NCBI RefSeq assembly: GCF_900095265.1
Contig: NZ_LT607652.1
Location: forward strand, 495,762 to 559,761
DNA length: 64,000 nucleotides
Origin: Janthinobacterium sp. UMAB-56
GTDB lineage: Bacteria > Pseudomonadota > Gammaproteobacteria > Burkholderiales > Burkholderiaceae_D
Direction: 5' to 3'
Positions within the stretch are counted from its first letter, which is position 1, and every line of letters begins with the position of its first letter. The position numbers and the translations under genes are program-made. Under the pieces are notes generated by a model. The model saw only the letters and a program-made list of their open reading frames with translations, was not told the origin of the DNA and searched no databases. Below are positions 3,440 through 16,167 of the stretch, one piece after another.

Positions 3440-6400
3440 GCGCGCCAGCCTGGCCGCGCGGCGGCGGCAGCATGGGCGAGCTGGTGCGCCAGCGCGACTG
3501 GTCCGCCACCAGCCTGGGCGCCCTCGATGGCTGGCCTGCCCATTTGCGCACCAGCGTCGACATCGTGCTCAATTCGCCGATGGCGATGGTGCTGATGTGG
3601 GGGCCGCAGCACGTGATGATTTACAACGACGACTACATTCCGATCGCCGGGGCGCGCCATCCGGCGGCGCTGGGCGGTACGGTGCCGGCCGTCTGGCCCG
3701 AAATATGGGACTGGAATGCGCGCATCCTCGAAGCGGGATTGCGCGGCGAGACGCAGGTGCACCGCGAGTGCAACCTGCCGCTGTTGCGCGACGGACAGCG
3801 CGCGGATGTCTGTTTTGACTTGTTTTACACGCCCGTGCGTGGCGCTGACGGCCAGGTGGACGGCGTGCTGTGCACGGCGCTCGAATTGACAGCGCGCATG
3901 GAAGAGGGGCGCCAGCTGAAGCTGGCCACGGCCGAGCTGGGCGAACTGAACACTACCTTGCAGGCCGAAAGCGAGGCCCTGCGCGCGGCCAACCGCCGCC
4001 TGGGCGAGGAGCGCGCGCTGCTGCGGGCCCTGTTCCAGCAGGCACCGAGCTTCATGGCCCTGCTGCGCGGGCCGCAGCACGTGTTTGAATTGGCGAATGA
4101 GCATTATCTGCGCCTGGTGGGCCACCGCGATTTACTGGGCAAGACAGTCGAAGTGGCCTTGCCCGAAGTCAAGGCGCAGGGTTTCATCGAACTGCTCGAC
4201 CAGGTCTACCGCACGGGCGAACCTTTCGAGGGGCGCCAGATGACCGTCGATTTGCAGACGGCGGACGGGCGGACGGGCCAGCGCCAGATCGACTTCGTCT
4301 ACCAGCCTATCAAGGATGACGATGGCGTGGTCACGGGTATACTCGTCGAGGGCGTCGATGTCACCGAACGCATGGAAGGCGAGGAGCGGCTGCGCCTGGC
4401 CCAGCAGGCGGGTGGCATCGGCACCTTCGAATGGTTCCCCGAGACGGGCGCGATGCTGGTGTCGCCCACCTTCCGCCACCTGTGGGGCATTGCCGACGAG
4501 GAAGAGGTCACGCAGCAGTTGCTGGTCAGCCTGGTCGATGAACGGGACTTGACGAAGGTGGGGCCCAGCAAGCTTGATCTGGCGCAAAATCCTCTCGAAT
4601 ATGTGGAATACCGCATCCGCCGGCCTGCCGATGGCGCGCTGCGCTGGATCGCGCGCCAGGGCGAGGTGGTGGCCGGCCGCGTACCTGGCCAGCGCCGCTA
4701 CGTGGGCGTGTCGTTCGACGTGACGGAGCGGCGCCAGATCAAGGATGAACTCAACGCCAGCCAGGAGCGCATGGCGGCCATTTTCGGCCAGGCTGCCGTG
4801 GGCTTGTCCGAGCTGGGCCTCGATGGCCGTTTCCAGCGCGTCAACGGCGCCCTGTGCGGCATGCTTGGCCGCTCGGCCGAAGAGCTGCTGAGCCTAAACA
4901 TGAATGACATCATGCACCCGGCGGACGTGCCTGGCAACAGCGTGCTGTTCCATCGCCTGGTGGAAACGGGCGAGTCGTTTTCGCTGGAAAAGCGCTACCT
5001 GAAGCCCGATGGCTCGCAAGTGTGGGTGTCGAGCAATGTCACTCGCCTGGTCGATGAAAAGGGGCATACGCGTTCCCTGATCGCCGTCAAGACGGACATC
5101 ACGGCTCGGCGCCGCGTGGAAAAGGCGCTGCATGAATTGAACGAAACGCTAGAACACCGGGTCGAACAGGAAGTGAGCGAGCGCACCAAGGCCGAAGACG
5201 CCTTGCGCCAGGCGCAAAAGATGGAAGCCGTGGGCCAGCTGACGGGCGGCATTGCGCACGACTTCAATAACGTGCTGCAAATCATCTCCGGCAATCTGCA
5301 TTTGCTGCAGCACCTGACGGGCACGGATGGCTTGATGCGCCAGCGCCTGGACACGGCGATTGCCGCCGTCGAACGGGGTGCCAAACTGTCGTCGCACCTG
5401 CTGGCGTTTGCGCGGCGCCAACCGTTGAAACCCGTGGTGGCCGACCTGGCGCGCGTGGTGCGCAACATGGATGCGCTGCTGCGGCGCGCCCTGGGCGAAG
5501 CGATCGACATCGTGCTGGTGGGCGGCGGCGGGCTGTGGAATACCCTGGTTGACCGCAGCCAGATCGAGAACGTCATCCTCAACCTGGCCATCAATGCGCG
5601 CGACGCCATGGATGGCGTGGGCAAGCTGACCATCGAGCTGGGCAATGTCGTGCTCGACGAGCAGTATGTGCATAAGTTGGTCGACGTGCCGGCGGGCCAG
5701 TACGTGATGCTGTCGGTGACCGATACGGGGCGTGGCATGAGCGGCCCCGTGCTGCAGCGCGCCTTCGAGCCGTTCTTTACCACCAAGCCGGAAGGCGCGG
5801 GCACGGGCCTGGGCTTGTCGATGGCGTATGGCTTTGTCACGCAAAGCCGTGGCCATATCCGCATTTACAGTGAACCTGGCGTGGGCACGGGAGTCAAAAT
5901 CTATTTACCCCGTTCCCTGATGGCCGAAGCGGACGATGAACTGGAATTGAGCGGCGTCGTCACGGGCGGCACGGAAACGGTGCTGGTGGTGGAAGACGAC
6001 GTGGGCGTGCGCACCACCGTGGTCGACATGCTCGGCGCGCTCGGTTACACGGTGCTCAAGGCCGAAGATGGCGAAAGCGCGCTGGCCGTGCTGCACAGCG
6101 GCGCGCAGATCGACTTGCTGTTTACGGACGTGATCATGCCCGGTCCCGTCAGCAGCACGGAGATGGCGCGCCAGGCGCGCGAGTTGCAGCCCGATATAGC
6201 CGTCTTGTTTACGTCGGGCTATGCGCAGGATGTCATCGTGCACGAGGGCAGGCTCGACGCGGGGGTGGAATTGCTCAGCAAGCCGTATCGGCGCGAGGAG
6301 CTGGCACGCAAGCTGCGCCATGTGCTGGCCAACCGCCAGCAGCAAATGCGTGCGCGCCAGTTTGAACGGTCCGGCGCGCCGGTGGCCGGCAGCACGGCGG

Positions 6401-6819
6401 CCAGCGTGCAGGGCGGCGGCACGCCGGGGCTGGACTTGACGGGCCATGCTTTGCTACCGCAAGGGGACATGCCGACATCCATGAAGATACTCGTGGTGGA
6501 AGACAATCTCGATTCGCAGCTGATGGTGTGCGAACTGGTGGGCATGCTGGGCCATACGGTTAGCGGCGTGTCCGATGGCGAGGCGGCGTGGGAATTGCTC
6601 AACGAGCAAGACTTCGATCTCTTGTTTACGGACGTCAGTCTGCCCGGCATGTCTGGCATCGCGCTGGCGCGCATGGTGCTGCGAGAGAAACCGGACATGC
6701 GCATTATCTTTTCCACCGGTTATGGCAAGGAATCGATGGATGAACTGGGCTTCTCCGCCAGCGTCTTGCGCAAGCCCTATGATTTGATGGAGTTACAAGC
6801 CGCACTAGACCAACCCTGA
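3436..6819 (+). CDS. Multi-PAS hybrid histidine kinase with two C-terminal receivers
   Basis: About 1,127 residues. The start at 3436 forms an ATGA overlap with the preceding stop and has GGAG upstream; an upstream ATG at 3403 would give a larger overlap. Order: a PAS-like domain (DYIPIAGARHP), a coiled segment, then three more PAS domains ending in the typical DVTER or DITAR motifs, a HisKA domain with His608 in GGIAHDFNN, an ATPase domain (NLAINARDAM, GTGLGLSMAYG), a first receiver with Asp898 (LLFTDVIMPG) and a second with Asp1066 (LLFTDVSLPG). No membrane segment is apparent, so it senses a cytoplasmic signal such as redox state or a ligand. It is the last gene of the cheR-cheB-kinase operon. 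Confidence 0.9.
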   Translation: MSAPAWPRGGGSMGELVRQRDWSATSLGALDGWPAHLRTSVDIVLNSPMAMVLMWGPQHVMIYNDDYIPIAGARHPAALGGTVPAVWPEIWDWNARILEAGLRGETQVHRECNLPLLRDGQRADVCFDLFYTPVRGADGQVDGVLCTALELTARMEEGRQLKLATAELGELNTTLQAESEALRAANRRLGEERALLRALFQQAPSFMALLRGPQHVFELANEHYLRLVGHRDLLGKTVEVALPEVKAQGFIELLDQVYRTGEPFEGRQMTVDLQTADGRTGQRQIDFVYQPIKDDDGVVTGILVEGVDVTERMEGEERLRLAQQAGGIGTFEWFPETGAMLVSPTFRHLWGIADEEEVTQQLLVSLVDERDLTKVGPSKLDLAQNPLEYVEYRIRRPADGALRWIARQGEVVAGRVPGQRRYVGVSFDVTERRQIKDELNASQERMAAIFGQAAVGLSELGLDGRFQRVNGALCGMLGRSAEELLSLNMNDIMHPADVPGNSVLFHRLVETGESFSLEKRYLKPDGSQVWVSSNVTRLVDEKGHTRSLIAVKTDITARRRVEKALHELNETLEHRVEQEVSERTKAEDALRQAQKMEAVGQLTGGIAHDFNNVLQIISGNLHLLQHLTGTDGLMRQRLDTAIAAVERGAKLSSHLLAFARRQPLKPVVADLARVVRNMDALLRRALGEAIDIVLVGGGGLWNTLVDRSQIENVILNLAINARDAMDGVGKLTIELGNVVLDEQYVHKLVDVPAGQYVMLSVTDTGRGMSGPVLQRAFEPFFTTKPEGAGTGLGLSMAYGFVTQSRGHIRIYSEPGVGTGVKIYLPRSLMAEADDELELSGVVTGGTETVLVVEDDVGVRTTVVDMLGALGYTVLKAEDGESALAVLHSGAQIDLLFTDVIMPGPVSSTEMARQARELQPDIAVLFTSGYAQDVIVHEGRLDAGVELLSKPYRREELARKLRHVLANRQQQMRARQFERSGAPVAGSTAASVQGGGTPGLDLTGHALLPQGDMPTSMKILVVEDNLDSQLMVCELVGMLGHTVSGVSDGEAAWELLNEQDFDLLFTDVSLPGMSGIALARMVLREKPDMRIIFSTGYGKESMDELGFSASVLRKPYDLMELQAALDQP

Positions 6820-6869
6820 CGGGCAAGCGCCGGCACGGCTTGCCTGTCTCACCCTGAAGAGGCGAATGA

Positions 6870-7268
6870 ATGACTCCTGAATTGACGATGCTGGCCTGTA
6901 CTTTGGTGCTGGCGCTGCTGCAAATTCTGCTGCCAGCGCTGTTTCGCACGCGCGAGACAGGCACGGCCTATAACGTGAGTGCGCGCGACGGTGAAGGCCC
7001 GCCCGTGGGCAAGATCACGGGCCGCTTGCAGCGGGCTCAGGCGAACCTGTTCGAAACCCTGCCACTGTTCGCCGCTGCCGTGCTGATCGCCCACGTGACG
7101 GCGCAGGAAAGCGCGCTGACCCTGTATGGCGCCGCCCTGTATCTGGCCGCGCGCGTGCTCTACCTGCCCCTGTACGCGTTTGGCGTACCCGTCGTGCGCA
7201 CGCTCGTCTGGTGCGTGTCGATTGCCGGCTTGCTCATGCTGTACTGGGCCATCCTGTTTGCTTCCTGA
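6870..7268 (+). CDS. MAPEG-family membrane protein
   Basis: 132-residue membrane protein with about four hydrophobic helices and the MAPEG-family pattern: an N-terminal helix (ACTLVLALLQILLPALF), the RAQANLFETLPLFAAAVL motif, and YLAARVLYLPLYAFGVPVVRT. Eukaryotic members conjugate glutathione or handle eicosanoids; the role of bacterial members is mostly unknown. The ATG has GAAGAGGCGAATGA upstream, giving an AGAGG ribosome site. The gene stands about 50 bases downstream of the hybrid kinase but belongs to no clear operon. Confidence 0.88.
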   Translation: MTPELTMLACTLVLALLQILLPALFRTRETGTAYNVSARDGEGPPVGKITGRLQRAQANLFETLPLFAAAVLIAHVTAQESALTLYGAALYLAARVLYLPLYAFGVPVVRTLVWCVSIAGLLMLYWAILFAS

Positions 7269-7381
7269 ATTCCTACGCCAGCTGTGGCGCCCGTCCTATG
7301 GCGGAGCGTCAGGCCCGACCGTAAAGTAGCTGCATCGAGGCGCATGGGCGCCGGCAGCGCAGTGTTACTTTTGGGACGGCA

Positions 7382-9064
7382 ATGATGAGCAGTGCAGCGA
7401 AGCAATCCGGCAAGTCCGGCAAGCCTATCCAGCGCCTGCTGCGCACGGTCTTTGGCGTGGCGCGGTTGCGCATGGGCCAGCAGGAAGTCATCGACAGCGT
7501 GCTGTCCGGGCGCGACACCCTGGCCATCATGCCCACCGGCAGCGGCAAGTCGCTGTGTTACCAGCTGCCCGCCGCCCTGTTCGCGGGCGCGACCCTGGTG
7601 GTGTCGCCGCTGATCTCGCTGATGCAGGACCAGCTGGAAAAGCTGCACGAACTGGGCATCACGGCCGTGCAGCTCAACAGCAGCCTGTCGCGCGCGGAAG
7701 AGGAGGAGGCCGTCGCCCGCATCAGCCAGGGAGGCAGGCTCATCATCTTTTGTACGCCGGAACGCCTTGCCAGCGCCGCCTTCCTGTCGCTGCTGGCCAG
7801 CGCGCCGCCCAGCCTGGTCGTTATCGATGAAGCCCATTGCATTTCCCACTGGGGCCACGACTTCCGTCCTGCCTACCTGGAAATAGCGGCCGCCCTGCGC
7901 GCGCTGGGCCGTCCGCCCGTGCTGGCGCTGACGGCCACGGCCACCGAGGAAGTGATTGCCGATATCGCCACGCAGCTCGAAGCGCGCAAACTGCAGGTCA
8001 TCAATACCGGCATCTACCGGGCCAATTTGCGCTACCGTGTGATCCAGGTCACGAATGCCGGAGAAAAACAGGATACCGTCTTGCGCCTGCTGCGCGAGAC
8101 ATCCGGCGTGGGCATCGTGTATGCGGCCACCGTCAAGGCCGTCGAGGACCTGGCGGCGCGGCTGGCAGAATTGGGCGAGAGCGTCACGTGTTACCACGGC
8201 AAGCTGGCGGCGCGTGAACGCAAGCACAAGCAGGAATTGTTCATGAACGGCGAACGCCGCATCATGGTCGCCACCAATGCCTTCGGCATGGGCATCGACA
8301 AGCCCGACACGCGCTTCGTGATCCACTTGCAGGTGCCGGCCAACCTGGAAGCGTACTACCAGGAATCGGGCCGGGCGGGGCGCGACGGCTTGCCCGCCGA
8401 TTGCACCTTGCTGTATTTTCAGCAAGACAAGCGGGTGCAGCAATTCTTTCTGGCGAAGCACTATCCCACGGCCGACGATTTGGCTGCCATCGTCGTTGCG
8501 GCACAAGGCTTGCCAGCCAAGTTTGCGTTCGCTGCGCTGGCGTCCAGCCTGCCCGAATTTTCCGAAGGTCACTTGAAGGTAGGTGTGAAACTGTTGAAAG
8601 ACGGCAAGCTGCTGCGCCAGAACCGCCGGCTGGGCTACAGCCTGAAAGCGCCCTTGGCCAGCTCGCCCTCTTATGTGCAACTGGCGCAAATCTATGTCGA
8701 CAAGCAGGAGCGCGACAAACAGGCGCTCGAGCAGATGGTGGCCTATGCGCAAAGTGGCCTGTGCCGCTGGAAGTTGCTGCTCGATTATTTTGGCGATGCC
8801 GGTGATTTCGAACGCTGTTGCACTTGCGACAATTGCCAGTCGCCGCCCGCGCTGGCCGCGCCCATCTCCCTGGACGAGTTGCCGCCCGCATCCGCCCAAG
8901 CACAAACCCCAGCCCCAGCGTCCCGGATCGCCGTCGGCAGCCGCGTGCGCGTGCCCCGATTCCAGATCGGCACCGTGCTGTCGGTGGCCGGCGAGCAGGT
9001 CACCATAGCCTTTCCGGAAGACACCACGCGTACCTTCATGGCGGAATTTGTCGTCCCCGCGTGA
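7382..9064 (+). CDS. recQ: ATP-dependent DNA helicase RecQ
   Basis: 560-residue superfamily 2 helicase. Visible motifs are Walker A MPTGSGKSLCYQ, motif II VIDEAHCISHWGHDFRP, motif III LTATAT, motif VI ESGRAGRDG, and the RecQ zinc-binding cysteines in GLCRWK and CCTCDNC. RecQ unwinds branched DNA during recombination repair and fork restart. The HRDC domain usual at the C-terminus of the E. coli enzyme is absent; a short beta-rich tail (SRVRVPRFQIGTVLSVAGEQVTIAF) takes its place, resembling small SH3-like folds. Two adjacent ATGs (7382, 7385) could start it. It is transcribed alone. Confidence 0.9.
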   Translation: MMSSAAKQSGKSGKPIQRLLRTVFGVARLRMGQQEVIDSVLSGRDTLAIMPTGSGKSLCYQLPAALFAGATLVVSPLISLMQDQLEKLHELGITAVQLNSSLSRAEEEEAVARISQGGRLIIFCTPERLASAAFLSLLASAPPSLVVIDEAHCISHWGHDFRPAYLEIAAALRALGRPPVLALTATATEEVIADIATQLEARKLQVINTGIYRANLRYRVIQVTNAGEKQDTVLRLLRETSGVGIVYAATVKAVEDLAARLAELGESVTCYHGKLAARERKHKQELFMNGERRIMVATNAFGMGIDKPDTRFVIHLQVPANLEAYYQESGRAGRDGLPADCTLLYFQQDKRVQQFFLAKHYPTADDLAAIVVAAQGLPAKFAFAALASSLPEFSEGHLKVGVKLLKDGKLLRQNRRLGYSLKAPLASSPSYVQLAQIYVDKQERDKQALEQMVAYAQSGLCRWKLLLDYFGDAGDFERCCTCDNCQSPPALAAPISLDELPPASAQAQTPAPASRIAVGSRVRVPRFQIGTVLSVAGEQVTIAFPEDTTRTFMAEFVVPA

Positions 9065-9362
9065 GCCGCAGCAGGCAGGCAATTTGTCGTTCTGCCATCA
9101 TCCGGGCAGCTCCGCACCCGGCCAGGTGCCGGCGGACGCGGCGCGTTCCCCGTTTCCGCCTAACTGCTGAGTATTTGGTACTTTTGGTGTGAAACTAAAA
9201 GTAACTGCGCCACCGTAGGCGGGACTCATCCTACATGCGCTCTTGCCATCCTCCTATTTCTTGTATCCCATGCGCGCACTAAGATGACTGTTCCCCTGCC
9301 ATGCGAGGGGGAGGGATTGCATGGTTTGCATTGTTTCGATTTTATTGATCAAGGAGATCATC
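9065..9362. other. Intergenic region with a GTAGG/CCTAC inverted repeat
   Basis: About 300 bases between recQ and the KGG stress-protein gene. No coding frame with a ribosome site was found. It holds an inverted repeat GTAGG-N10-CCTAC at about 9215-9234. The ribosome binding site AAGGAG of the next gene is at 9351-9356. Confidence 0.5.
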
Positions 9363-9734
9363 ATGGCCACATCGAGCGACAATAAACAGCAAGGTAGTAA
9401 AACCAGTGGCGCCAGCAGTGGTGCCGGCAGCGGTAACAAGCAAAGCGATACCCGAAAGCGCGGCTTCGCTTCCATGGACCCTGCCCAGCAGCGCGAAATC
9501 GCCAGCGAAGGCGGACGCGCCGCGCATGAAAAGGGTACGGCCCATGAATTCACGTCGGAAGAGGCGCGCCGTGCAGGCAGCCAAAGCCACAAGAATGATG
9601 GCAACCGTCAAAGTGCCGCTGGCGCCAGTGGTTCGCGTGACAATGCCAGCACCAAGCAGGAGAGCAACCGCGATAGTGGCAACAAGCAAAGCGGCGGTTC
9701 GGGTTCCAGCTCCGGTTCGCGCAACAAGCCGTAG
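9363..9734 (+). CDS. KGG-repeat general stress protein
   Basis: 123-residue, very hydrophilic protein rich in Gly, Ser, Asn, Gln and Lys. It carries two copies of the KGG-type motif seen in plant Em-like and B. subtilis GsiB-like stress proteins: RGFASMDPAQQREIASEGGRA and EFTSEEARRAGSQSHKN. Such proteins are disordered and linked to desiccation or general stress; the mechanism is not settled. The start at 9363 is chosen because AAGGAG lies six bases upstream; an in-frame ATG at 9321 has no such site. The tail from residue 85 on is low complexity. Confidence 0.82.
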   Translation: MATSSDNKQQGSKTSGASSGAGSGNKQSDTRKRGFASMDPAQQREIASEGGRAAHEKGTAHEFTSEEARRAGSQSHKNDGNRQSAAGASGSRDNASTKQESNRDSGNKQSGGSGSSSGSRNKP

Positions 9735-9920
9735 CGGGCAGTAGCAAGTGATCATGGCCAGCGGCAGGCAGGCACGTCGCTGGTTCAGACCACCTTATTT
9801 GGGCTATCGCAAAATTTTGATGCAATGCAGCAGGCATGGACTATGATGAAATAGCTGCGCTGGTCACGGCCAACGCGCAGTCAACGCACTCAAATCGCAC
9901 TCACGAGCAGGGAGAAGATG

Positions 9921-10184
9921 ATGGGCAACTCCACCACGCCGCAGAGCGGCAATCGCCAGGGCGGCACGGCATCCACGGCAGGTAGCAAGCAAAGTACGGC
10001 CAATTCGGCCGAGAACTTTGTGCTGGTCGATAGCGAGCAGGGTCTCGATATCGGCGATGATCTGTTTTCCATCGGCGAAGTGCGTCGGGCCGACCGCTTG
10101 CCCCATCACCAGTCCGGCTCTGCCGGGCAGAGCCGGCAGAGTGCCGACGATGCGCCAGACACCACAGGCAGTACGGGCGTCTGA
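9921..10184 (+). CDS. Small hypothetical protein, Gln/Ser/Gly-rich start
   Basis: 87 residues, not recognised. The first 30 residues are Ser/Thr/Gly/Gln-rich like the neighbouring KGG protein (GSKQSTANSAE); the middle is acidic (LVDSEQGLDIGDDLFSIGEVRRADRLP) and the end again low complexity. GGAGAAG at 9911-9917 suits the ATG at 9921 better than that at 9918. No signal peptide or membrane segment. It may be a lineage-specific stress protein because it lies between two stress-type genes; this is only a guess from context. Confidence 0.55.
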   Translation: MGNSTTPQSGNRQGGTASTAGSKQSTANSAENFVLVDSEQGLDIGDDLFSIGEVRRADRLPHHQSGSAGQSRQSADDAPDTTGSTGV

Positions 10185-10284
10185 ACTTTCCTTCCTGTCT
10201 GATGATCGCCGCAGTAGCAGCCGCAAGGCGTGTGCGCGCACGCCGGCTGCTTGCCGGCGCACTCCTGGGTAATTTGCGACTCTG

Positions 10285-10782
10285 CTACAGGTCGACTCGC
10301 CCGTGTTCGCCCAGATCCTTGGGCGCGTCCCCCGTGATGGCGGCCTTGGCCATTGCATAGAATTGCATCATCTTGCTGGCGCTGCTATCCCAATACTCGG
10401 CTGACTGGATCGTCACTTTGATCAGCGACAGCTTCGGATCGTCGAGTCCGCCCGGGAACCAGGCTTTCATCAGCGGATTCCACAATTGCTCCGCCTTGGC
10501 GCGGTCCTTCAGTAATTGCGCGTGGCCGCAAACGGACACATACAGGCTGTCGCCCGTATCAGCAAAACTGACGTTGACTTGCGGATTGTTCAGCAAGTCG
10601 CGCGTGTAGGCCGCCTCGTCCGAGACAAAGAACCAGATCTGCCCATCGCTATCGACCTGCTGCTGTGTCAACGGCCGGCTGGTGAGGGTGCGCATGTCGT
10701 CGCTCGTGGTCAGCATGCCGAATTTGATGTCCTTGATCCTGGCCGCGATGTCGGCCAGTTGTTCGCTGGAATACGCTTGCAT
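10285..10782 (-). CDS. Pyridoxamine 5'-phosphate oxidase-family (general stress protein 26-like) flavin-binding protein
   Basis: 165 residues of the split-barrel FMN-binding fold: IKFGMLTTSDDMRTLTSRPL at the start, then GQIWFFVSDEAAYTRDLLNNPQVNVSFAD and YVSVCGHAQLLKDRAKAEQLWNP, a layout typical of general stress protein 26 homologues. These bind FMN or a related flavin; their reaction is mostly unknown. The start at 10782 is chosen over the longer frame because GGGAG lies just upstream of this ATG and the family begins here. It is divergent from the Fur-controlled cluster, separated by about 270 bases. Confidence 0.85.
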   Translation of the reverse strand: MQAYSSEQLADIAARIKDIKFGMLTTSDDMRTLTSRPLTQQQVDSDGQIWFFVSDEAAYTRDLLNNPQVNVSFADTGDSLYVSVCGHAQLLKDRAKAEQLWNPLMKAWFPGGLDDPKLSLIKVTIQSAEYWDSSASKMMQFYAMAKAAITGDAPKDLGEHGRVDL

Positions 10783-10924
10783 GGGGTGCTCCCTTGTTGG
10801 TTGTCCTGAACAACAGCATAGGCGCAGCTCGCCTGCGGCTCTGTACGGCAGCTTACGTAGCGGCCGGCCTTGTGCATGTTTCAAAGCTGTTACAAAACGC
10901 CCGCCAGACGGGGTGCCCCATGTA

Positions 10925-10955
10925 TTGACTTAATAAATGATAATCATTATCATTT
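10925..10955 (+). promoter_or_regulatory. Promoter with overlapping Fur box
   Basis: A Fur box occupies 10935-10955: 10-base arms AAATGATAAT and ATTATCATTT flank a single central C and are perfect inverted repeats. A candidate sigma-70 promoter TTGACT (10925-10930), 17 bases, TATCAT (10948-10953) has its -10 element inside the box, so iron-loaded Fur would block RNA polymerase. It points at the PepSY gene about 95 bases downstream. Confidence 0.88.
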
Positions 10956-11050
10956 GTTTGCATTGATGGGCATGAACTTTGATTGAAGGATGGGAATGAA
11001 GCACACTGACTTGTTGCGCCACCGGGCCCGCTCCTTGCCGGGAGTCCTTG

Positions 11051-11704
11051 ATGGCTAAGGTGGGCACCGCAGACCAGGCCAGGAACAATGCCAGCCGCGC
11101 CGTCTGGCTGAAGAACTTGCATCAATGGCACTGGATCAGCTCGGCGCTTTGCCTGCTGGGCATGTTTTTGTTTGCCATCACCGGCATCACCCTGAACCAC
11201 GCCAGCCAGATCGAAGCCAAGCCGTCAATCACGCGGCAAAAGGCACAACTGCCGGCCCCTTTGCTCACAGAACTGGCCGCGTATGCCGCCGGACATGATG
11301 GCGCCAACGCGCCCATGCCAGCCGCCGCCGAGACCTGGCTCAGGCAGAAATGGTCGCTCAATGCGGGCGGGCGTCCCGCCGAATGGAGCGTCGACGAAGT
11401 GTATTTGCCACTGCCCAAGGCGGGCGGCGACGCCTGGGTGCGTATCGGCCTGGAAGACGGCGCCGCCGAATACGAGTTGACGGACCGGGGCTGGGTATCC
11501 TGGCTCAACGATGTGCACAAGGGCCGCAACACGGGCGTGGCCTGGAACTGGTTCATCGATATTTTTGCTGGCGCCTGCATCGTGTTTTGCCTGACGGGTT
11601 TATTGATTTTGAAGTTCCACGCGGCCAACCGGCCGTTCACCTGGCCGATGGTTGGCCTCGGTATCTTGATACCGTGCGCGATCGCCTTGCTGTTTATCCA
11701 CTGA
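11051..11704 (+). CDS. PepSY-associated transmembrane protein
   Basis: 217 residues. An N-terminal helix with LHQWHWISSALCLLGMFLFAITGITLNH is typical of PepSY-associated membrane proteins; a soluble periplasmic part (about residues 55-160) follows, then WFIDIFAGACIVFCLTGLLIL and a last helix. His residues near the membrane (HQWHW, LNH, NDVHKG) resemble those that bind heme in PepSY and ferric reductase-like proteins, but this is inference. GGAG lies six bases before the ATG at 11051; a TTG at 11048 is ignored. First gene behind the Fur box; it could carry electrons across the inner membrane from the reductase encoded at 14182-15546. Confidence 0.85.
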   Translation: MAKVGTADQARNNASRAVWLKNLHQWHWISSALCLLGMFLFAITGITLNHASQIEAKPSITRQKAQLPAPLLTELAAYAAGHDGANAPMPAAAETWLRQKWSLNAGGRPAEWSVDEVYLPLPKAGGDAWVRIGLEDGAAEYELTDRGWVSWLNDVHKGRNTGVAWNWFIDIFAGACIVFCLTGLLILKFHAANRPFTWPMVGLGILIPCAIALLFIH

Positions 11705-11736
11705 TCGTTTTTATTTTTCCTTTTTACAGGCACACC

Positions 11737-12252
11737 ATGAAATTACGCTACTCCCTGGCGCTTGGCCTTCCCCTGATCGGCACCTCGGCAATGGCGGCCG
11801 ACCTGGCCCTCAAGCTTGAAATTCCGCAACTGAACGTGGCGGAATACCACCGTCCCTACGTGGCGGCGTGGCTGGAAACGGCCGATCAAAAGGTCGTCGG
11901 CAACCTGACGGTGTTGTATGACGTGAAAAAGAAGGACAAGGCAGGCGAGAAGTGGCTGAAGGATATGCGTCAATGGTGGCGCAAGAGCGGCCGCGACCTG
12001 ACCATGCCCGTTGACGGCGTCAGTGGCGCCACGCGTGCGCCTGGCGAACATACCCTGACTTTCCCCGGCGCCAAGGCCTTGCTCGACAAGCTGCCGGCCG
12101 GCGAATACCAGGTAGTGGTGGAAGCGGCGCGCGAAGCGGGCGGACGCGAACTGGTGCGCGTGCCGTTCCAGTGGCCGCTGAAATCGGCCCAGTCCGTGTC
12201 TGCCAAAGGCAAGGAAGAACTCGGTAACGTCGTCGTCCAACTCAAACCATAA
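11737..12252 (+). CDS. DUF2271 periplasmic protein with flavinylation-like motif
   Basis: 171 residues with a Sec signal peptide (LALGLPLIGTSAMAA, cut near residue 21). The mature part matches DUF2271: LALKLEIPQLN, YHRPYVAAWLE, LTVLYDVKKKDKAGEKWLKDMRQWWRKSG. Residues 93-99 read DGVSGAT, which looks like the D-x-x-(S/T)-G-A-T motif where ApbE attaches FMN to a Thr in NqrC/RnfG-type domains; here Thr99 would be the acceptor. An apbE gene follows two genes later. Reading: a covalently flavinylated periplasmic electron carrier. The family call is firm; the flavin is inferred. Confidence 0.82.
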   Translation: MKLRYSLALGLPLIGTSAMAADLALKLEIPQLNVAEYHRPYVAAWLETADQKVVGNLTVLYDVKKKDKAGEKWLKDMRQWWRKSGRDLTMPVDGVSGATRAPGEHTLTFPGAKALLDKLPAGEYQVVVEAAREAGGRELVRVPFQWPLKSAQSVSAKGKEELGNVVVQLKP

Positions 12253-12262
12253 GGCGCACATC

Positions 12263-13087
12263 ATGTTCAAGCAACTCAATAAGCCTTTGATCGCGCTGGC
12301 CCTGGCCGGCCTGGCCATGAATGCCCACGCCCACCGCGGCTGGATGGTGCCATCGAGCACGATGGTGGAAAGCAAGGACGCCTGGGTGACGGTGGACGCG
12401 GCCGTCTCCGATGGCCTGTTCGAGATCGACCACCAGCCGCTGCGCCTGGACGCGCTGCAAGTGATCGGTCCGGATGGCGCGAAAGTCACGCCGGCGAACA
12501 CGGTCACGGGCCGTCTGCGCAGCGTCTTCGACGTCAAGATGGAAAAACCGGGCACCTACAAGGCGGCCATCGTGTCGCAAAACGTGATGGGCAGCTACAA
12601 GCTCAATGGCGAGCAGAAGCGTTTTCGCGGCAACGAGGAAACCTTCAAGAAGGACGTGCCGGCCGATGCACAAGAGCTGAAAATCACGCGCACGGCAGCG
12701 CGACTGGAAACCTTCTTCAGCAATGGCGAAACCAGCATGGAAGTGTTCAAGCCGACAGGCGTGGGCCTGGAATTCGTGCCGGTGACGCATCCGAACGACT
12801 TGCGTGCTGGCGAGAAAGCCACGTGGCGTTTCTTGATCGACGGCAAGCCGGCAGCGAACCAGGCGTTCAGCCTGGTGCCAGGCGGCGTGCGCTACCGTGG
12901 CGTGCTCGGTGAAATTCGCCAGAGCACCGATGCCAAGGGCGAAATTACATTCACCATCCCGGCGGCCGGCATGTATTACCTGAGCAGCACCTGGCCAGCG
13001 GCCGCACCGGCCGTGCCCGGCCAGCCGCCGGTCATGCCGGAGCGCCGCATGACGTACGCTGCCACCGTGGAAGTACTGCCGCAGTAA
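12263..13087 (+). CDS. DUF4198 periplasmic protein
   Basis: 274 residues. A signal peptide (LIALALAGLAMNAHA) would leave a mature protein beginning His-Arg-Gly-Trp. Beta-rich DUF4198 features follow: HRGWMVPSSTMVES, AVSDGLFEIDH, GEKATWRFLIDGKPAANQ and the C-terminal AGMYYLSSTWPA. Some DUF4198 proteins accompany nickel or cobalt transport and bind metal through their N-terminal His; whether this one does so is inference. It sits 10 bases after the DUF2271 gene in the Fur-controlled cluster. Confidence 0.85.
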   Translation: MFKQLNKPLIALALAGLAMNAHAHRGWMVPSSTMVESKDAWVTVDAAVSDGLFEIDHQPLRLDALQVIGPDGAKVTPANTVTGRLRSVFDVKMEKPGTYKAAIVSQNVMGSYKLNGEQKRFRGNEETFKKDVPADAQELKITRTAARLETFFSNGETSMEVFKPTGVGLEFVPVTHPNDLRAGEKATWRFLIDGKPAANQAFSLVPGGVRYRGVLGEIRQSTDAKGEITFTIPAAGMYYLSSTWPAAAPAVPGQPPVMPERRMTYAATVEVLPQ

Positions 13088-13113
13088 GCGGCGGCATTTT
13101 CGCCAGAGCACCG

Positions 13114-14169
13114 ATGCGCCGGGTCCTGCTGCCGCAGCATATTTCCGATCAGCTCGCGCCGTCCGGCGCCGCGATCCGGGATCTGCGCGGCCTGACGATG
13201 GGTAGCAGCTGGTCGGTGCGCTTGCTCGAGTCCGCCATGCCGGGACGCGCGGGCAGCGCCGACTTGCAGCAGGGCTTGCAGCAGCAACTGGACCTGGTCG
13301 TGGCGCAGATGAGCCACTGGGACGACGAGTCTGACCTGGGCCGCTACAACCGGGCCGAGCCCGGCAGCTGGCACAGTCTGCCTGCCGCCTTTTGCGAGGT
13401 GCTGGGTTTTGCCATGCACGTATCGCAAGCGTCCGGCGGCGCGTACGACCCGTGCGCCGGCGCCCTCGTCAATCTGTGGGGCTTCGGCCCCCGCCACCGT
13501 TACGATGAGCCGGGCTTCCTGCCGCCGAAAGACGATACCGTGGCCTTGCTGCTGGCGCAGCGCCAGCGCCGCCGCCTGGAACTGGACTTGCCGGCCCGCC
13601 GCATGCGCCAGCCGGGTGGCTTGCAGCTCGATTTGTCTGCCGTGGCCAAGGGCTATGGCGTGGACCGCCTGGCCCGCTACCTGGATAGCCAGGGCATCCA
13701 TCATTACCTGGTCGAAGTGGGCGGCGAGCTGCGCGGCGCTGGCAGCAAGCCCGACGGCCAGCCGTGGTGGGTGCTGCTGGAACAGGTCGATGGCGCCGAT
13801 AATGCCGATAATGCCGATAATGCCGATAATGCACAGCATCCGCCGGAAATGCTGCTGGCGCTGCACGGCCTGTCCGTGGCGACCTCTGGCGACTATCGGC
13901 GCTTCTTCCAGGACGGCACAGTTCGTTTTTCACACACCATTGATCCGCGCAGCGGCATGCCGATCGCCAATCAACTCGCTTCCGTCACCGTCGTGCATGA
14001 GCAATGCATGGCGGCCGATGCCTGGTCGACGGCCCTGACCGTACTGGGCTTGGATGCCGGCATGGCGCTGGCCGAAGAGCAGGGCCTGGCCGCGCGCTTT
14101 CTGCAGCGTGACGGCGATGGCTACCACGAAACGCTGAGCAGCCACATGCTGGCCATGCTCGACGAATGA
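13114..14169 (+). CDS. apbE: ApbE-family FAD:protein FMN transferase
   Basis: 351 residues. ApbE features: GLTMGSSWSVRL near the start, VSQASGGAYDPCAGALVNLWGFGP, LDLSAVAKGYGVDRLARYL, GGELRGAGSKPDG, LSVATSGDYRRFF, HTIDPRSGMPI and CMAADAWSTAL with the Mg-binding Asp. ApbE transfers FMN from FAD to a Thr of a target protein. Unlike periplasmic lipoprotein ApbEs, no signal peptide or lipobox is visible at this start. A run of four 9-base repeats lies in the middle. Its likely target is the DUF2271 protein of the same cluster; the reductase gene follows 12 bases later. Confidence 0.88.
   Translation: MRRVLLPQHISDQLAPSGAAIRDLRGLTMGSSWSVRLLESAMPGRAGSADLQQGLQQQLDLVVAQMSHWDDESDLGRYNRAEPGSWHSLPAAFCEVLGFAMHVSQASGGAYDPCAGALVNLWGFGPRHRYDEPGFLPPKDDTVALLLAQRQRRRLELDLPARRMRQPGGLQLDLSAVAKGYGVDRLARYLDSQGIHHYLVEVGGELRGAGSKPDGQPWWVLLEQVDGADNADNADNADNAQHPPEMLLALHGLSVATSGDYRRFFQDGTVRFSHTIDPRSGMPIANQLASVTVVHEQCMAADAWSTALTVLGLDAGMALAEEQGLAARFLQRDGDGYHETLSSHMLAMLDE
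13795..13830 (+). repeat. In-frame microsatellite, 4 x GCCGATAAT
   Basis: Four perfect tandem copies of the 9-mer GCCGATAAT inside apbE, coding for (Ala-Asp-Asn)4. Copy changes by slippage would keep the frame and only change a loop between LLEQVDG and the core strand MLLALHGL. Confidence 0.95.
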
Positions 14170-14181
14170 ACGATTAACGCC

Positions 14182-15546
14182 ATGATTTTTACGCACGATA
14201 CGACGCGGCTGGCCTTGCTGGCCGTCCTGTCCCTCAGTTATGCCGGCGTATGCATGGCGCCCTGGCTGCGCGCGCGCGCCAGGCGCCGCGCGTCCGACGC
14301 CGCCAGGGCGGCGCTGGCCGACAGCCCCGCCTGGCTGGTGGCGTATGCGAGCCAGACGGGCAATGCAGAGGAACTGGCCACGCAAACGGCGCGCAGCCTG
14401 CAACTGGCCGGCATTCCTGTGCGCCTGTGCGCGCTGGCCGAACTCACGGCCAATGATCTGCAACAAGCCGAACGGGCCTTGTTGTTGGTCAGCACCTATG
14501 GCGAAGGCGATGCACCCGACAACGCGGCTGCTTTCATGGGGCGCCTGATGACGGGCGGGCTGGCGCTGCCACAATTGCATTACGCCGTGCTGGCCCTGGG
14601 CGACCGCAGCTATGGTCAGTTTTGTGGCTTCGGCCGCGCGCTGGATGCCTGGCTGGCCGCGCAGGGCGCTTCGCGTCTGTTTGAGCGCATCGAAGTCGAC
14701 CGTAGCGCCAGCGCCGCCATCGAGCAATGGTTCCAGCACTTGAGCCATTTGGCCGGTACCAGCGACGCGCCCGACTGGAGCGCGCCCGCTTTTGGCGACT
14801 GGCGCCTGACGCACCGGCAGTTGCTCAATCCGGGCAGCGCCGGCGGCGCCATCTATCACGTGGAACTGGCGCCCGTGGCGGGTACCTTGCCGGATTGGCA
14901 GTCGGGCGACCTGGTGCAGGTGGCCGCACCGCTTGACCCTGCGCAGCCGCGCGAATATTCGATCGCCTCGATCCCGCACGACGGTGGCGTGCACTTGCTG
15001 GTGCGCCAGCAGATGCATCCCGATGGCAGTCTGGGACTGGCCTCTGGCTGGCTGACGGCGCAGGCGGCCGTGGGCGAGGTGGTGCAGCTGCGCTTGCGCC
15101 AGCACCGGCGATTCCGCCTGGAAGACAATGCCCGGCGTCCTTTGATTCTGATCGGCAACGGCAGCGGCATCGCCGGCCTGCGCGGCCACCTGAAGAGCCG
15201 CGTGCTGGCAGGGCAGCGGCGCAACTGGCTGATCTTTGGCGAGCGCAATGCGGCCCACGATTTCCTTTATCGCGAAGAAATTGAACAGTGGCACGCCAGC
15301 GGCGACTTGCCTCGCCTGGACCTGGCATTTTCGCGCGACCAGGCTGAGCGGATGTACGTGCAGGACCGCCTGCGCGGCAATGCCGACGAAGTCAGGCTGT
15401 GGCTGGAGCAGGGTGCGGCCATCTACATCTGCGGCAGCCTGGCCGGCATGGCGGGCGGGGTCGACCAGGCCCTGCAAGACATGCTGGGCCGTTCCGCGCT
15501 CGACGCGCTGGCGGCTGCAGGGCGCTACCGGCGCGACGTCTACTGA
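14182..15546 (+). CDS. Membrane-anchored flavodoxin-FAD/NAD(P)H reductase (CysJ-like)
   Basis: 454 residues. One N-terminal hydrophobic helix (LALLAVLSLSYAGVCMAPWL) is followed by a flavodoxin domain (AYASQTGNAEELA, VSTYGEGDAPDNAAAFM, LALGDRSYGQFCGFG), an FAD-binding domain (PREYSIASIPHDGG) and an NADPH-binding domain (LIGNGSGIAGLRGHL, YICGSLAGMAGGVDQALQDM). This matches the diflavin part of sulfite reductase alpha subunits and of PiuB-type iron-uptake reductases, where a PepSY membrane part is fused; here PepSY is a separate gene. It would move electrons from NADPH through FAD and FMN to the membrane partner. Last gene of the Fur-controlled cluster. Confidence 0.87.
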   Translation: MIFTHDTTRLALLAVLSLSYAGVCMAPWLRARARRRASDAARAALADSPAWLVAYASQTGNAEELATQTARSLQLAGIPVRLCALAELTANDLQQAERALLLVSTYGEGDAPDNAAAFMGRLMTGGLALPQLHYAVLALGDRSYGQFCGFGRALDAWLAAQGASRLFERIEVDRSASAAIEQWFQHLSHLAGTSDAPDWSAPAFGDWRLTHRQLLNPGSAGGAIYHVELAPVAGTLPDWQSGDLVQVAAPLDPAQPREYSIASIPHDGGVHLLVRQQMHPDGSLGLASGWLTAQAAVGEVVQLRLRQHRRFRLEDNARRPLILIGNGSGIAGLRGHLKSRVLAGQRRNWLIFGERNAAHDFLYREEIEQWHASGDLPRLDLAFSRDQAERMYVQDRLRGNADEVRLWLEQGAAIYICGSLAGMAGGVDQALQDMLGRSALDALAAAGRYRRDVY

Positions 15547-15615: not shown

Positions 15616-16167
15616 ATGAGCGACAGCATTTACGACATTCCCCTGCGCCGCATCAATGGCGAGCCCAGTAGCCTGGACGCCTATCGCGGCAAGGTCGTGC
15701 TGGTGGTCAATGTCGCCTCCGCCTGCGGCTTGACTCCGCAGTACGAGGGTCTGGAAAAACTCTACGCCGACAAGCAGGCCGAGGGCCTGGTGGTGGCCGG
15801 CTTTCCCGCGAATGAATTCGGTGCGCAGGAGCCGGGCAGCAATGCCGAGATCGCGGACTTTTGCCGCGGTACTTTCGGCGTGCAGTTTCCCCTGTTTGAA
15901 AAAATCGTCGTCAAGGGCCCGGGCCAGCATCCGCTGTACCAGCGCCTGGTGCAAGCGCAGCCGCGTGCGCAGGAAAAGCCTGGCAGCGATTTCCGCGCCA
16001 AGCTGGCCGGCTACGGCATCACGCAGGAGCAGCCTTCCGACGTGCTGTGGAATTTCGAGAAGTTTTTGATCAGCAAGGAGGGCAAGGTGGTGGGGCGGTT
16101 CGCGCCCGATACCACGGTCGATGATGCCATCCTGCGCGAGGCCATCGCGCGCGAGTTGCAGGCCTAG
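15616..16167 (+). CDS. Glutathione peroxidase family protein
   Basis: 183 residues, thioredoxin fold. The peroxidatic Cys37 lies in VNVASACGLTPQYEGLEKLY, followed by FPANEFGAQEPGSNAEI with the conserved Gln and by LWNFEKFLI with the catalytic Trp-Asn. It reduces hydrogen peroxide or lipid peroxides with thioredoxin or glutathione. The sequence is cysteine-type, not selenocysteine. GAGGAG lies before the ATG. Its 3' end faces the DUF2325 gene only 6 bases away. Confidence 0.92.
   Translation: MSDSIYDIPLRRINGEPSSLDAYRGKVVLVVNVASACGLTPQYEGLEKLYADKQAEGLVVAGFPANEFGAQEPGSNAEIADFCRGTFGVQFPLFEKIVVKGPGQHPLYQRLVQAQPRAQEKPGSDFRAKLAGYGITQEQPSDVLWNFEKFLISKEGKVVGRFAPDTTVDDAILREAIARELQA

Follow-up and report, generated by a model that had tools for sequence, protein, structure and literature searches.

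A five-gene operon in Janthinobacterium

A 64,000-nucleotide stretch of the Janthinobacterium sp. UMAB-56 genome (contig NZ_LT607652.1, positions 495,762 to 559,761; hereafter the window) carries five genes, all on the plus strand and separated by gaps of 10–32 bases, that encode a PepSY_TM-like membrane protein, a DUF2271 protein, a DUF4198 protein, the flavin adenine dinucleotide (FAD):protein flavin mononucleotide (FMN) transferase ApbE and a diflavin reductase (Table 1). This operon is real, conserved and linked to the regulator Fur. As judged from its sequence, the gene set is the Janthinobacterium copy of the known PepSY-like flavinylation system, and its interest lies in the location of ApbE rather than in the gene set itself.

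All five proteins score well past the Pfam cut-offs of their families. Specifically, the PepSY protein matches PF16357 (PepSY_TM_like_2) with 262 bits against a cut-off of 27 and PF03929 (PepSY_TM) with 41 bits against 28.8, while the CysJ-like diflavin reductase, which scores under the equivalog cut-off, matches PF00258 (Flavodoxin_1) with 102 bits and PF00175 (NAD_binding_1) with 44 bits. Among named sequences, the best matches of the operon ApbE come from Janthinobacterium. The open reading frame of the DUF2271 gene extends upstream to 11350; the position of the signal peptide and the relatives suggest the ATG at 11737 as the true start. The original prediction had described five same-strand genes behind a Fur box that overlaps a promoter, and the Pfam scores, the box and a sigma-70-like site all agree with this description.

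Table 1. Features of the operon, in window coordinates.
Feature	Position	Strand	Basis or detail
Whole gene set, five tightly spaced genes	11048–15546	+	PepSY_TM-like, DUF2271, DUF4198, ApbE, diflavin reductase
PepSY_TM-like membrane protein, 218 aa	11048–11704	+	Start TTG, or ATG at 11051; PF16357 and PF03929 (Pfam)
DUF2271 periplasmic protein, 171 aa, signal peptide	11737–12252	+	Pfam, 174 bits; signal by hydrophobicity
SGAT flavinylation motif of DUF2271, residues 96–99	12022–12033	+	Motif pattern [ST]GA[ST]
DUF4198 periplasmic protein, 274 aa	12263–13087	+	Pfam, 176 bits; fold match to Zcp and Ni-bound IsDUF4198
His24 codon of DUF4198, predicted mature residue 1	12332–12334	+	Residue conservation
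ApbE FAD:protein FMN transferase, 351 aa, without clear export signal	13114–14169	+	Pfam, 256 bits; PDB 5mgy, 190 bits
Diflavin reductase, 454 aa: membrane anchor at the N-terminus, then flavodoxin and NAD(P)-binding domains	14182–15546	+	Pfam
Sigma-70-like promoter, TTGACT-17-TATCAT	10925–10953	+	10/12 consensus positions; covers Fur box
Two overlapping 19-bp Fur boxes	10933–10957	both	10933–10951 on +; 10939–10957 on −, six-base shift

Fur control

Scored against the 19-bp consensus, the plus-strand Fur box matches at 16 of 19 positions, and when the window was shuffled 100 times no match as good arose. The sigma-70-like site is weak evidence alone, since 0.6 such sites are expected in shuffles against the one found. 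Upstream of the PepSY gene, a box of at least 15/19 is present in 27 of 70 loci, the window included, compared with 1 of 1400 base shuffles and none of 70 in-gene controls. Within the same genome, nine sites lie within three mismatches of the consensus, two of them being the overlapping pair of the operon, and the reversed pattern used as a control gave none. The surroundings of the seven other sites were scanned in one or two frames each (8 proteins): six adjoin FUR, FeoB, HemS/ChuX, FecR, a TonB-receptor plug or a Lys/Orn monooxygenase, and at the seventh (L258) the frames scanned held DUF2325 and thioredoxin-like proteins and no clear iron gene.

The Caulobacter crescentus operon CC_3059–3063 behaves in a manner consistent with such control. 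Its expression rises 12- to 51-fold upon iron limitation or loss of fur, and Fur binds over its −35 and −10 elements, as demonstrated with lacZ fusions and electrophoretic mobility-shift assays (PMC3751524). By sequence and by this analogy, the Janthinobacterium operon is most likely repressed by Fur and switched on by iron shortage.

Conservation of gene order

The original prediction called for a search for the five-gene set across genomes. Of 145 genomes sampled from the same family, 56 contained DUF2271, this one included; one locus was taken from each of 40 of the other 55, those with the highest scores, and the order PepSY, DUF2271, DUF4198, ApbE, diflavin reductase was kept in all 40. 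At the level of the phylum, 70 of 398 sampled genomes contained DUF2271 (65 above the cut-off), and the 29 wider loci of the main type comprised 14 with the full five genes, 7 without ApbE, 4 without the reductase and 4 without both within the stretch. The full order was likewise observed in 75 of 80 named loci with ApbE, with PepSY split over two frames in one and undetected in four; these four, from Vogesella and relatives, had no PepSY match at threshold, and one of them (L223) lies on a contig that is too short to hold the gene. A similarity search with this ApbE gave 264 relatives, of which the named loci are the best, and because they were chosen in this way they are not a fair sample of ApbE-less clusters.

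Three of the 40 family loci, from genomes of one genus (L064–L066), carry an extra DUF2271–DUF4198 pair directly 5′ of the five genes. We also considered whether the strict [ST]GA[ST] motif of DUF2271 is tied to the presence of ApbE (59 of 68 loci with ApbE versus 5 of 13 without, Fisher p 0.0005). This proposal was dropped: the association vanishes in the wider phylum loci (10/18 versus 5/12, p 0.71), and it probably reflects shared descent.

A pyridoxamine-oxidase-like gene (10285–10884) diverges from the operon on its upstream side and has a relative in at least 44 of the 80 named loci, and a glutathione peroxidase gene (15616–16167) lies downstream, with a counterpart in at least 11. These counts are lower bounds because some loci are short; both genes are outside the conserved set.

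Components of a putative electron path

In terms of transmembrane electron transfer, the candidate conduit is the PepSY protein. Its histidines at positions 25, 28, 51, 157, 191 and 218 are invariant in 39 close relatives, and its structural model, of fair quality (predicted local distance difference test score, pLDDT, 86.7; predicted template modelling score, pTM, 0.68), contains three long helices. The protein is a probable haem-binding electron conduit, although with no PDB match its haem binding rests on the conserved histidines and the literature. The N-terminus of the reductase reads as a hydrophobic segment followed by RARARRR, and its flavodoxin and NAD(P) domains would then be cytoplasmic.

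A link between these two proteins finds support in a second DUF2271 cluster of the same genome (G000:C4), where DUF2271 and ApbE adjoin a single 739-aa protein made up of PepSY_TM, flavodoxin and NAD-binding domains. This cluster (L124, G000:C4:24000–40000) spans 6086–11195 and contains a PepSY_2 protein, an SGAS-bearing DUF2271, the PepSY_TM–flavodoxin–ferredoxin-NADP+ reductase (FNR) fusion and a signal-less ApbE. A further member is presumably a TauE/SafE-like protein, as judged by eye, and a quinone-oxidoreductase-like frame adjoins the cluster, likewise by eye.

With respect to the electron carrier, DUF2271 is the only one of the five operon proteins that contains [ST]GA[ST], which rules out a second flavinylation target of this kind within the operon. 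The same motif in DUF2271 of Amantichitinum ursilacus has been shown to be flavinylated by its cognate ApbE (PMC8238504), and by sequence and analogy the Janthinobacterium protein is a probable FMN carrier. It has a signal peptide according to the simple hydrophobicity rules, based on an index of the hydrophobic (h-) region rather than a trained predictor, by which all export signals reported here were judged. Export by the twin-arginine (Tat) route was considered and rejected, as 10 of 153 loci have an RR or KR pair among the first 12 residues and the window's protein has no such pair.

The DUF4198 protein is also predicted to be secreted, with a signal at an index of at least 1.5 in 146 of 146 loci. 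With the cleavage site placed by the AxA rule and the alignment cut at His24, 68 of 73 proteins begin, in their predicted mature form, with a histidine, and a looser pattern gives 125 of 158; near-invariance is otherwise seen for His34 and His153. The model (pLDDT 91.1) matches the folds of Zcp with Cu, Zn or Co and of Ni-bound IsDUF4198. The latter binds metal through its N-terminal His and His18, with a dissociation constant for Ni2+ of 18 nM (PMC12537917). Residue 18 of our protein, matched by numbering only, is Trp, and its second metal ligand may therefore differ from that of IsDUF4198. By model and analogy, DUF4198 is a probable metal-binding protein. PDB entries 9mhi–9mho (Zcp) are named phosphoribosylglycinamide formyltransferase, yet both sequence profile and fold identify them as DUF4198; the molecule name is probably wrong, and a literature search found no publication on Zcp.

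Taken together, these observations make it highly probable, in our view, that the locus is a Fur-repressed PepSY-like flavinylation operon. In this model, the membrane-anchored flavodoxin/FNR-type reductase would take electrons from NADPH at the cytoplasmic face, and these would cross the membrane via the PepSY_TM-like protein, whose conserved histidines probably hold haems for this purpose, to reach FMN bound to Thr99 of periplasmic DUF2271. ApbE would attach this FMN. Reduced FMN–DUF2271 would then reduce ferric iron or a ferric chelate, leading to iron release and import, for example via the FeoB of this genome, and DUF4198 would act as a periplasmic metal binder, with its N-terminal His as the probable ligand.

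Several observations weigh against this model. In a wider set of 70 PepSY proteins only His 28, 51, 157 and 218 are kept at 90% or more, so that two of the six fall below; the fold of the PepSY monomer model matched no PDB entry at E ≤ 0.001, with FoxB absent among the 50 matches listed, and a profile search of PDB sequences returned nothing. A separate FAD-binding domain was not found in the reductase by Pfam at E 0.1. Conservation of the Fur box is uneven, with 23 of 70 loci scoring 12/19 or less, and ApbE is missing from the stretch at 13 of the 81 DUF2271 loci examined, one of them (L253) on a cut contig. Finally, IsDUF4198 prefers nickel and DUF4198 adjoins nickel genes in other contexts (PMC12537917), and for these reasons the metal of the operon could differ from iron.

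The path from NADPH through the reductase and PepSY to a flavinylated DUF2271 and ferric iron was part of the original prediction, and it fits both the sequence evidence and published work. We infer the direction of electron flow, the haem in the PepSY protein, iron as the acceptor and the role of DUF4198. One part that did not stand is the place of ApbE, which, lacking a clear export signal, cannot simply be assigned to the periplasm.

An ApbE without a clear export signal

The operon ApbE seems to remain in the cytoplasm, whereas DUF2271, its expected target, is sent out. A start codon lies exactly 25 residues 5′ of the ApbE G-x-[TS]-MG motif in 72 of the 80 named loci (62 of them ATG), and an MRRVLLP-like (R-x-V-L-L-P-like) stretch follows in 74. 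When one rule was applied to all three proteins of one larger set of loci, an index of at least 1.5 was reached by 18 of 155 ApbEs, compared with 148 of 153 DUF2271 and all DUF4198 proteins; 128 of the 155 ApbEs score below 1.0, and 15 of the 18 segments at 1.5 or above contain proline. The rule is not sharp, as at 1.9 only 59 of 153 DUF2271 proteins pass, versus 6 of 155 ApbEs. When starts further upstream were admitted as well, the flagged proteins of the family loci were 9 of 50 ApbEs, 50 of 51 DUF2271 and 51 of 51 DUF4198 proteins. An earlier 8-residue rule, now superseded, gave 16 of 68, 67 of 67 and 66 of 70, respectively, at 1.5 or above, and four of the DUF4198 rows look mis-anchored. 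Among individual ApbEs, that of L118 has a clear lipoprotein signal, and those of L085 and L205 may start further upstream, with a hydrophobic stretch in the added part.

The 157 operon ApbE loci, nine of the fused-reductase type included, hold 143 distinct sequences, the number being smaller because the collections of loci overlap. Left out of the signal count were L125 (no anchor), L134 and L135 (no start) and L253 (no ApbE frame on the cut contig), and the fragments L254 and L283 were unused.

Signals are the rule among non-operon ApbEs of this family: 16 of 21 were flagged, L242 among them being doubtful, and 5 were not. In 20 of 40 fetched genomes, the operon ApbE is the sole ApbE detected. 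DUF2271 keeps [ST]GA[ST] in all 20 of these, and its signal peptide is kept there too, whereas 3 of the sole ApbEs have an index of at least 1.5 and none reaches 1.9; the looser any-start rule flagged 5 of the 20 (L065, L066, L067, L083 and L095). ApbEs beside long frames of the PepSY–reductase type, a fusion confirmed by Pfam for L124 and called by frame length for the others, show no signal in 16 of 17 cases, and the 17th match lies inside the domain. In contrast, ApbE–DUF2271 fusion proteins carry a signal in 4 of 4 (L265–L268, each with an N-terminal signal peptide). A PepSY gene follows the fusion in L267 and L268; L269, a long DUF2271 frame without an ApbE match, was not counted as a fusion.

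At 13795–13830 the apbE gene of the window also carries GCCGATAAT, a unit encoding Ala-Asp-Asn, in four exact copies. The length of this segment differs in several relatives, and it may be a variable in-frame repeat.

Where DUF2271 may be flavinylated

These observations raise the possibility that the electron path is as proposed and that ApbE acts in the cytoplasm, flavinylating pre-DUF2271 before or during export by the general secretory (Sec) pathway. FAD export would be unneeded here, as ApbE would use cytoplasmic FAD. Such a location refines the electron-path model and does not oppose it, and on the sequence evidence we consider it almost as probable as its opposite. In favor are the conserved start before the G-x-[TS]-MG motif, the low hydrophobicity relative to DUF2271 and DUF4198, the genomes whose sole, signal-less ApbE accompanies an [ST]GA[ST]-bearing DUF2271, and the parallel lack of a signal in ApbEs beside PepSY–reductase fusions, set against its presence in ApbE–DUF2271 fusions. 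Moreover, a seven-residue tag suffices as an ApbE substrate, and cytoplasmic ApbEs are known, acting on soluble fumarate reductase or fused to one (PMC12052999), which together make FMN loading on the DUF2271 precursor possible.

Against this location stand the use of hydrophobicity rules, the many DUF2271 signals missed at the 1.9 cut, the family ApbEs flagged with any start allowed, five of them in sole-ApbE genomes, and the signal or possible upstream start in L118, L085 and L205. In addition, the ApbE shown to flavinylate DUF2271 in A. ursilacus is termed signal-peptide-truncated by the authors (PMC8238504), a periplasmic place was essential for Salmonella ApbE according to a 2025 review, which describes most ApbEs as secreted lipoproteins (PMC12052999), and Sec passage of an FMN-bearing chain is unproven.

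A more specific proposal, which we advance tentatively and judge somewhat less probable than the cytoplasmic location as such, is that in this PepSY–DUF2271 branch a signal-less ApbE loads FMN on the precursor and DUF2271 crosses by Sec with its cofactor bound. If true, covalent flavinylation would have two topologies, one periplasmic, with a lipoprotein ApbE or an exported ApbE–DUF2271 fusion, and one pre-export, and FAD export to the periplasm would no longer be needed. A signal-less ApbE in DUF2271 systems was not found noted in the open-access literature searched; the phrase "cytosolic flavinylation", indexed once for PMC8238504, did not turn up when its main text was searched. Either way, our finding makes the site of DUF2271 flavinylation a testable question, for which this lineage offers genomes whose only detected ApbE is signal-less, while the known cytoplasmic ApbEs serve cytoplasmic targets.

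Other metals and a siderophore module

Returning to the acceptor in the electron-path model, the metal may not be iron alone, and the operon might instead reduce copper or handle nickel, cobalt or zinc under iron control. The nanomolar affinity of IsDUF4198 for Ni2+ (PMC12537917), the Zcp structures solved with Cu, Zn and Co, and the link of the Bordetella PepSY_TM protein CrpH to copper (PMC13038864) point in this direction. We nonetheless regard this alternative as unlikely, given that the Fur box is conserved in many loci and similar sites lie near feoB, haem and siderophore genes, and given the iron induction of the Caulobacter operon (PMC3751524) and the lower fitness of its transposon insertions in ethylenediaminetetraacetic acid (EDTA; PMC11870441). 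Less probable still is a siderophore-specific inner-membrane permease or ferrisiderophore reductase module in which PepSY would serve as the permease, a role proposed in Alteromonas, where PepSY proteins adjoin iron-responsive TonB receptors (PMC7190382), since the conserved order here is that of the five genes (the flanks of relatives were not scanned for TonB receptors), the PepSY protein is small, with three long helices in its model, and the PepSY–reductase fusion points to electron transfer.

Relationship to known systems

The original prediction could not name a gene set with DUF2271 and DUF4198 under Fur, but the set has been named in Meheust et al. 2021, eLife (PMC8238504), and its order and Fur control have been described in Caulobacter (PMC3751524). 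The PepSY-like flavinylation system of the former comprises a PepSY-like protein, ApbE, DUF2271 (2833 clusters) and secreted DUF4198 (1500 clusters), with a proposed role in iron reduction. The Janthinobacterium operon shares with these clusters the PepSY_TM-like protein, the [ST]GA[ST] DUF2271 with its predicted signal, the secreted DUF4198, ApbE and the iron link. It differs in its separate anchored diflavin reductase and in its ApbE without a clear export signal; the survey centred on components for which a signal or lipid site was predicted. An exported ApbE is not seen here by hydrophobicity; the published definition requires that one or more target genes encode a signal and does not require ApbE export, and treats DUF4198 as frequent rather than required (PMC8238504).

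The Caulobacter operon CC_3059–3063 (CCNA_03155–03159) carries five matching annotations in the same order, a likeness judged from the annotations, and both operons have a Fur site over the −35 and −10 elements, although Caulobacter is an Alphaproteobacterium (PMC3751524). In the A. ursilacus DUF2271–ApbE pair the same motif is flavinylated, with both proteins described as signal-peptide-truncated for expression (PMC8238504), whereas here ApbE has no visible signal. Vibrio cholerae VciB and Pseudomonas FoxB are likewise PepSY-family membrane iron reductases, with conserved His in FoxB; VciB is not tied to flavinylation components (PMC8238504), and FoxB, of the di-haem type, is larger than our PepSY protein and absent among its listed fold matches. 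IsDUF4198 (9gcb) and Zcp share the DUF4198 fold, and the mature N-terminal His is shared with IsDUF4198. The Klebsiella ApbE for fumarate reductase is signal-less like ours, yet its target is cytoplasmic, whereas the sole operon target here bears a signal. Overall, the operon adds Janthinobacterium and related bacteria, in which the gene order is well kept, to the range of a known system for electron export under iron starvation.

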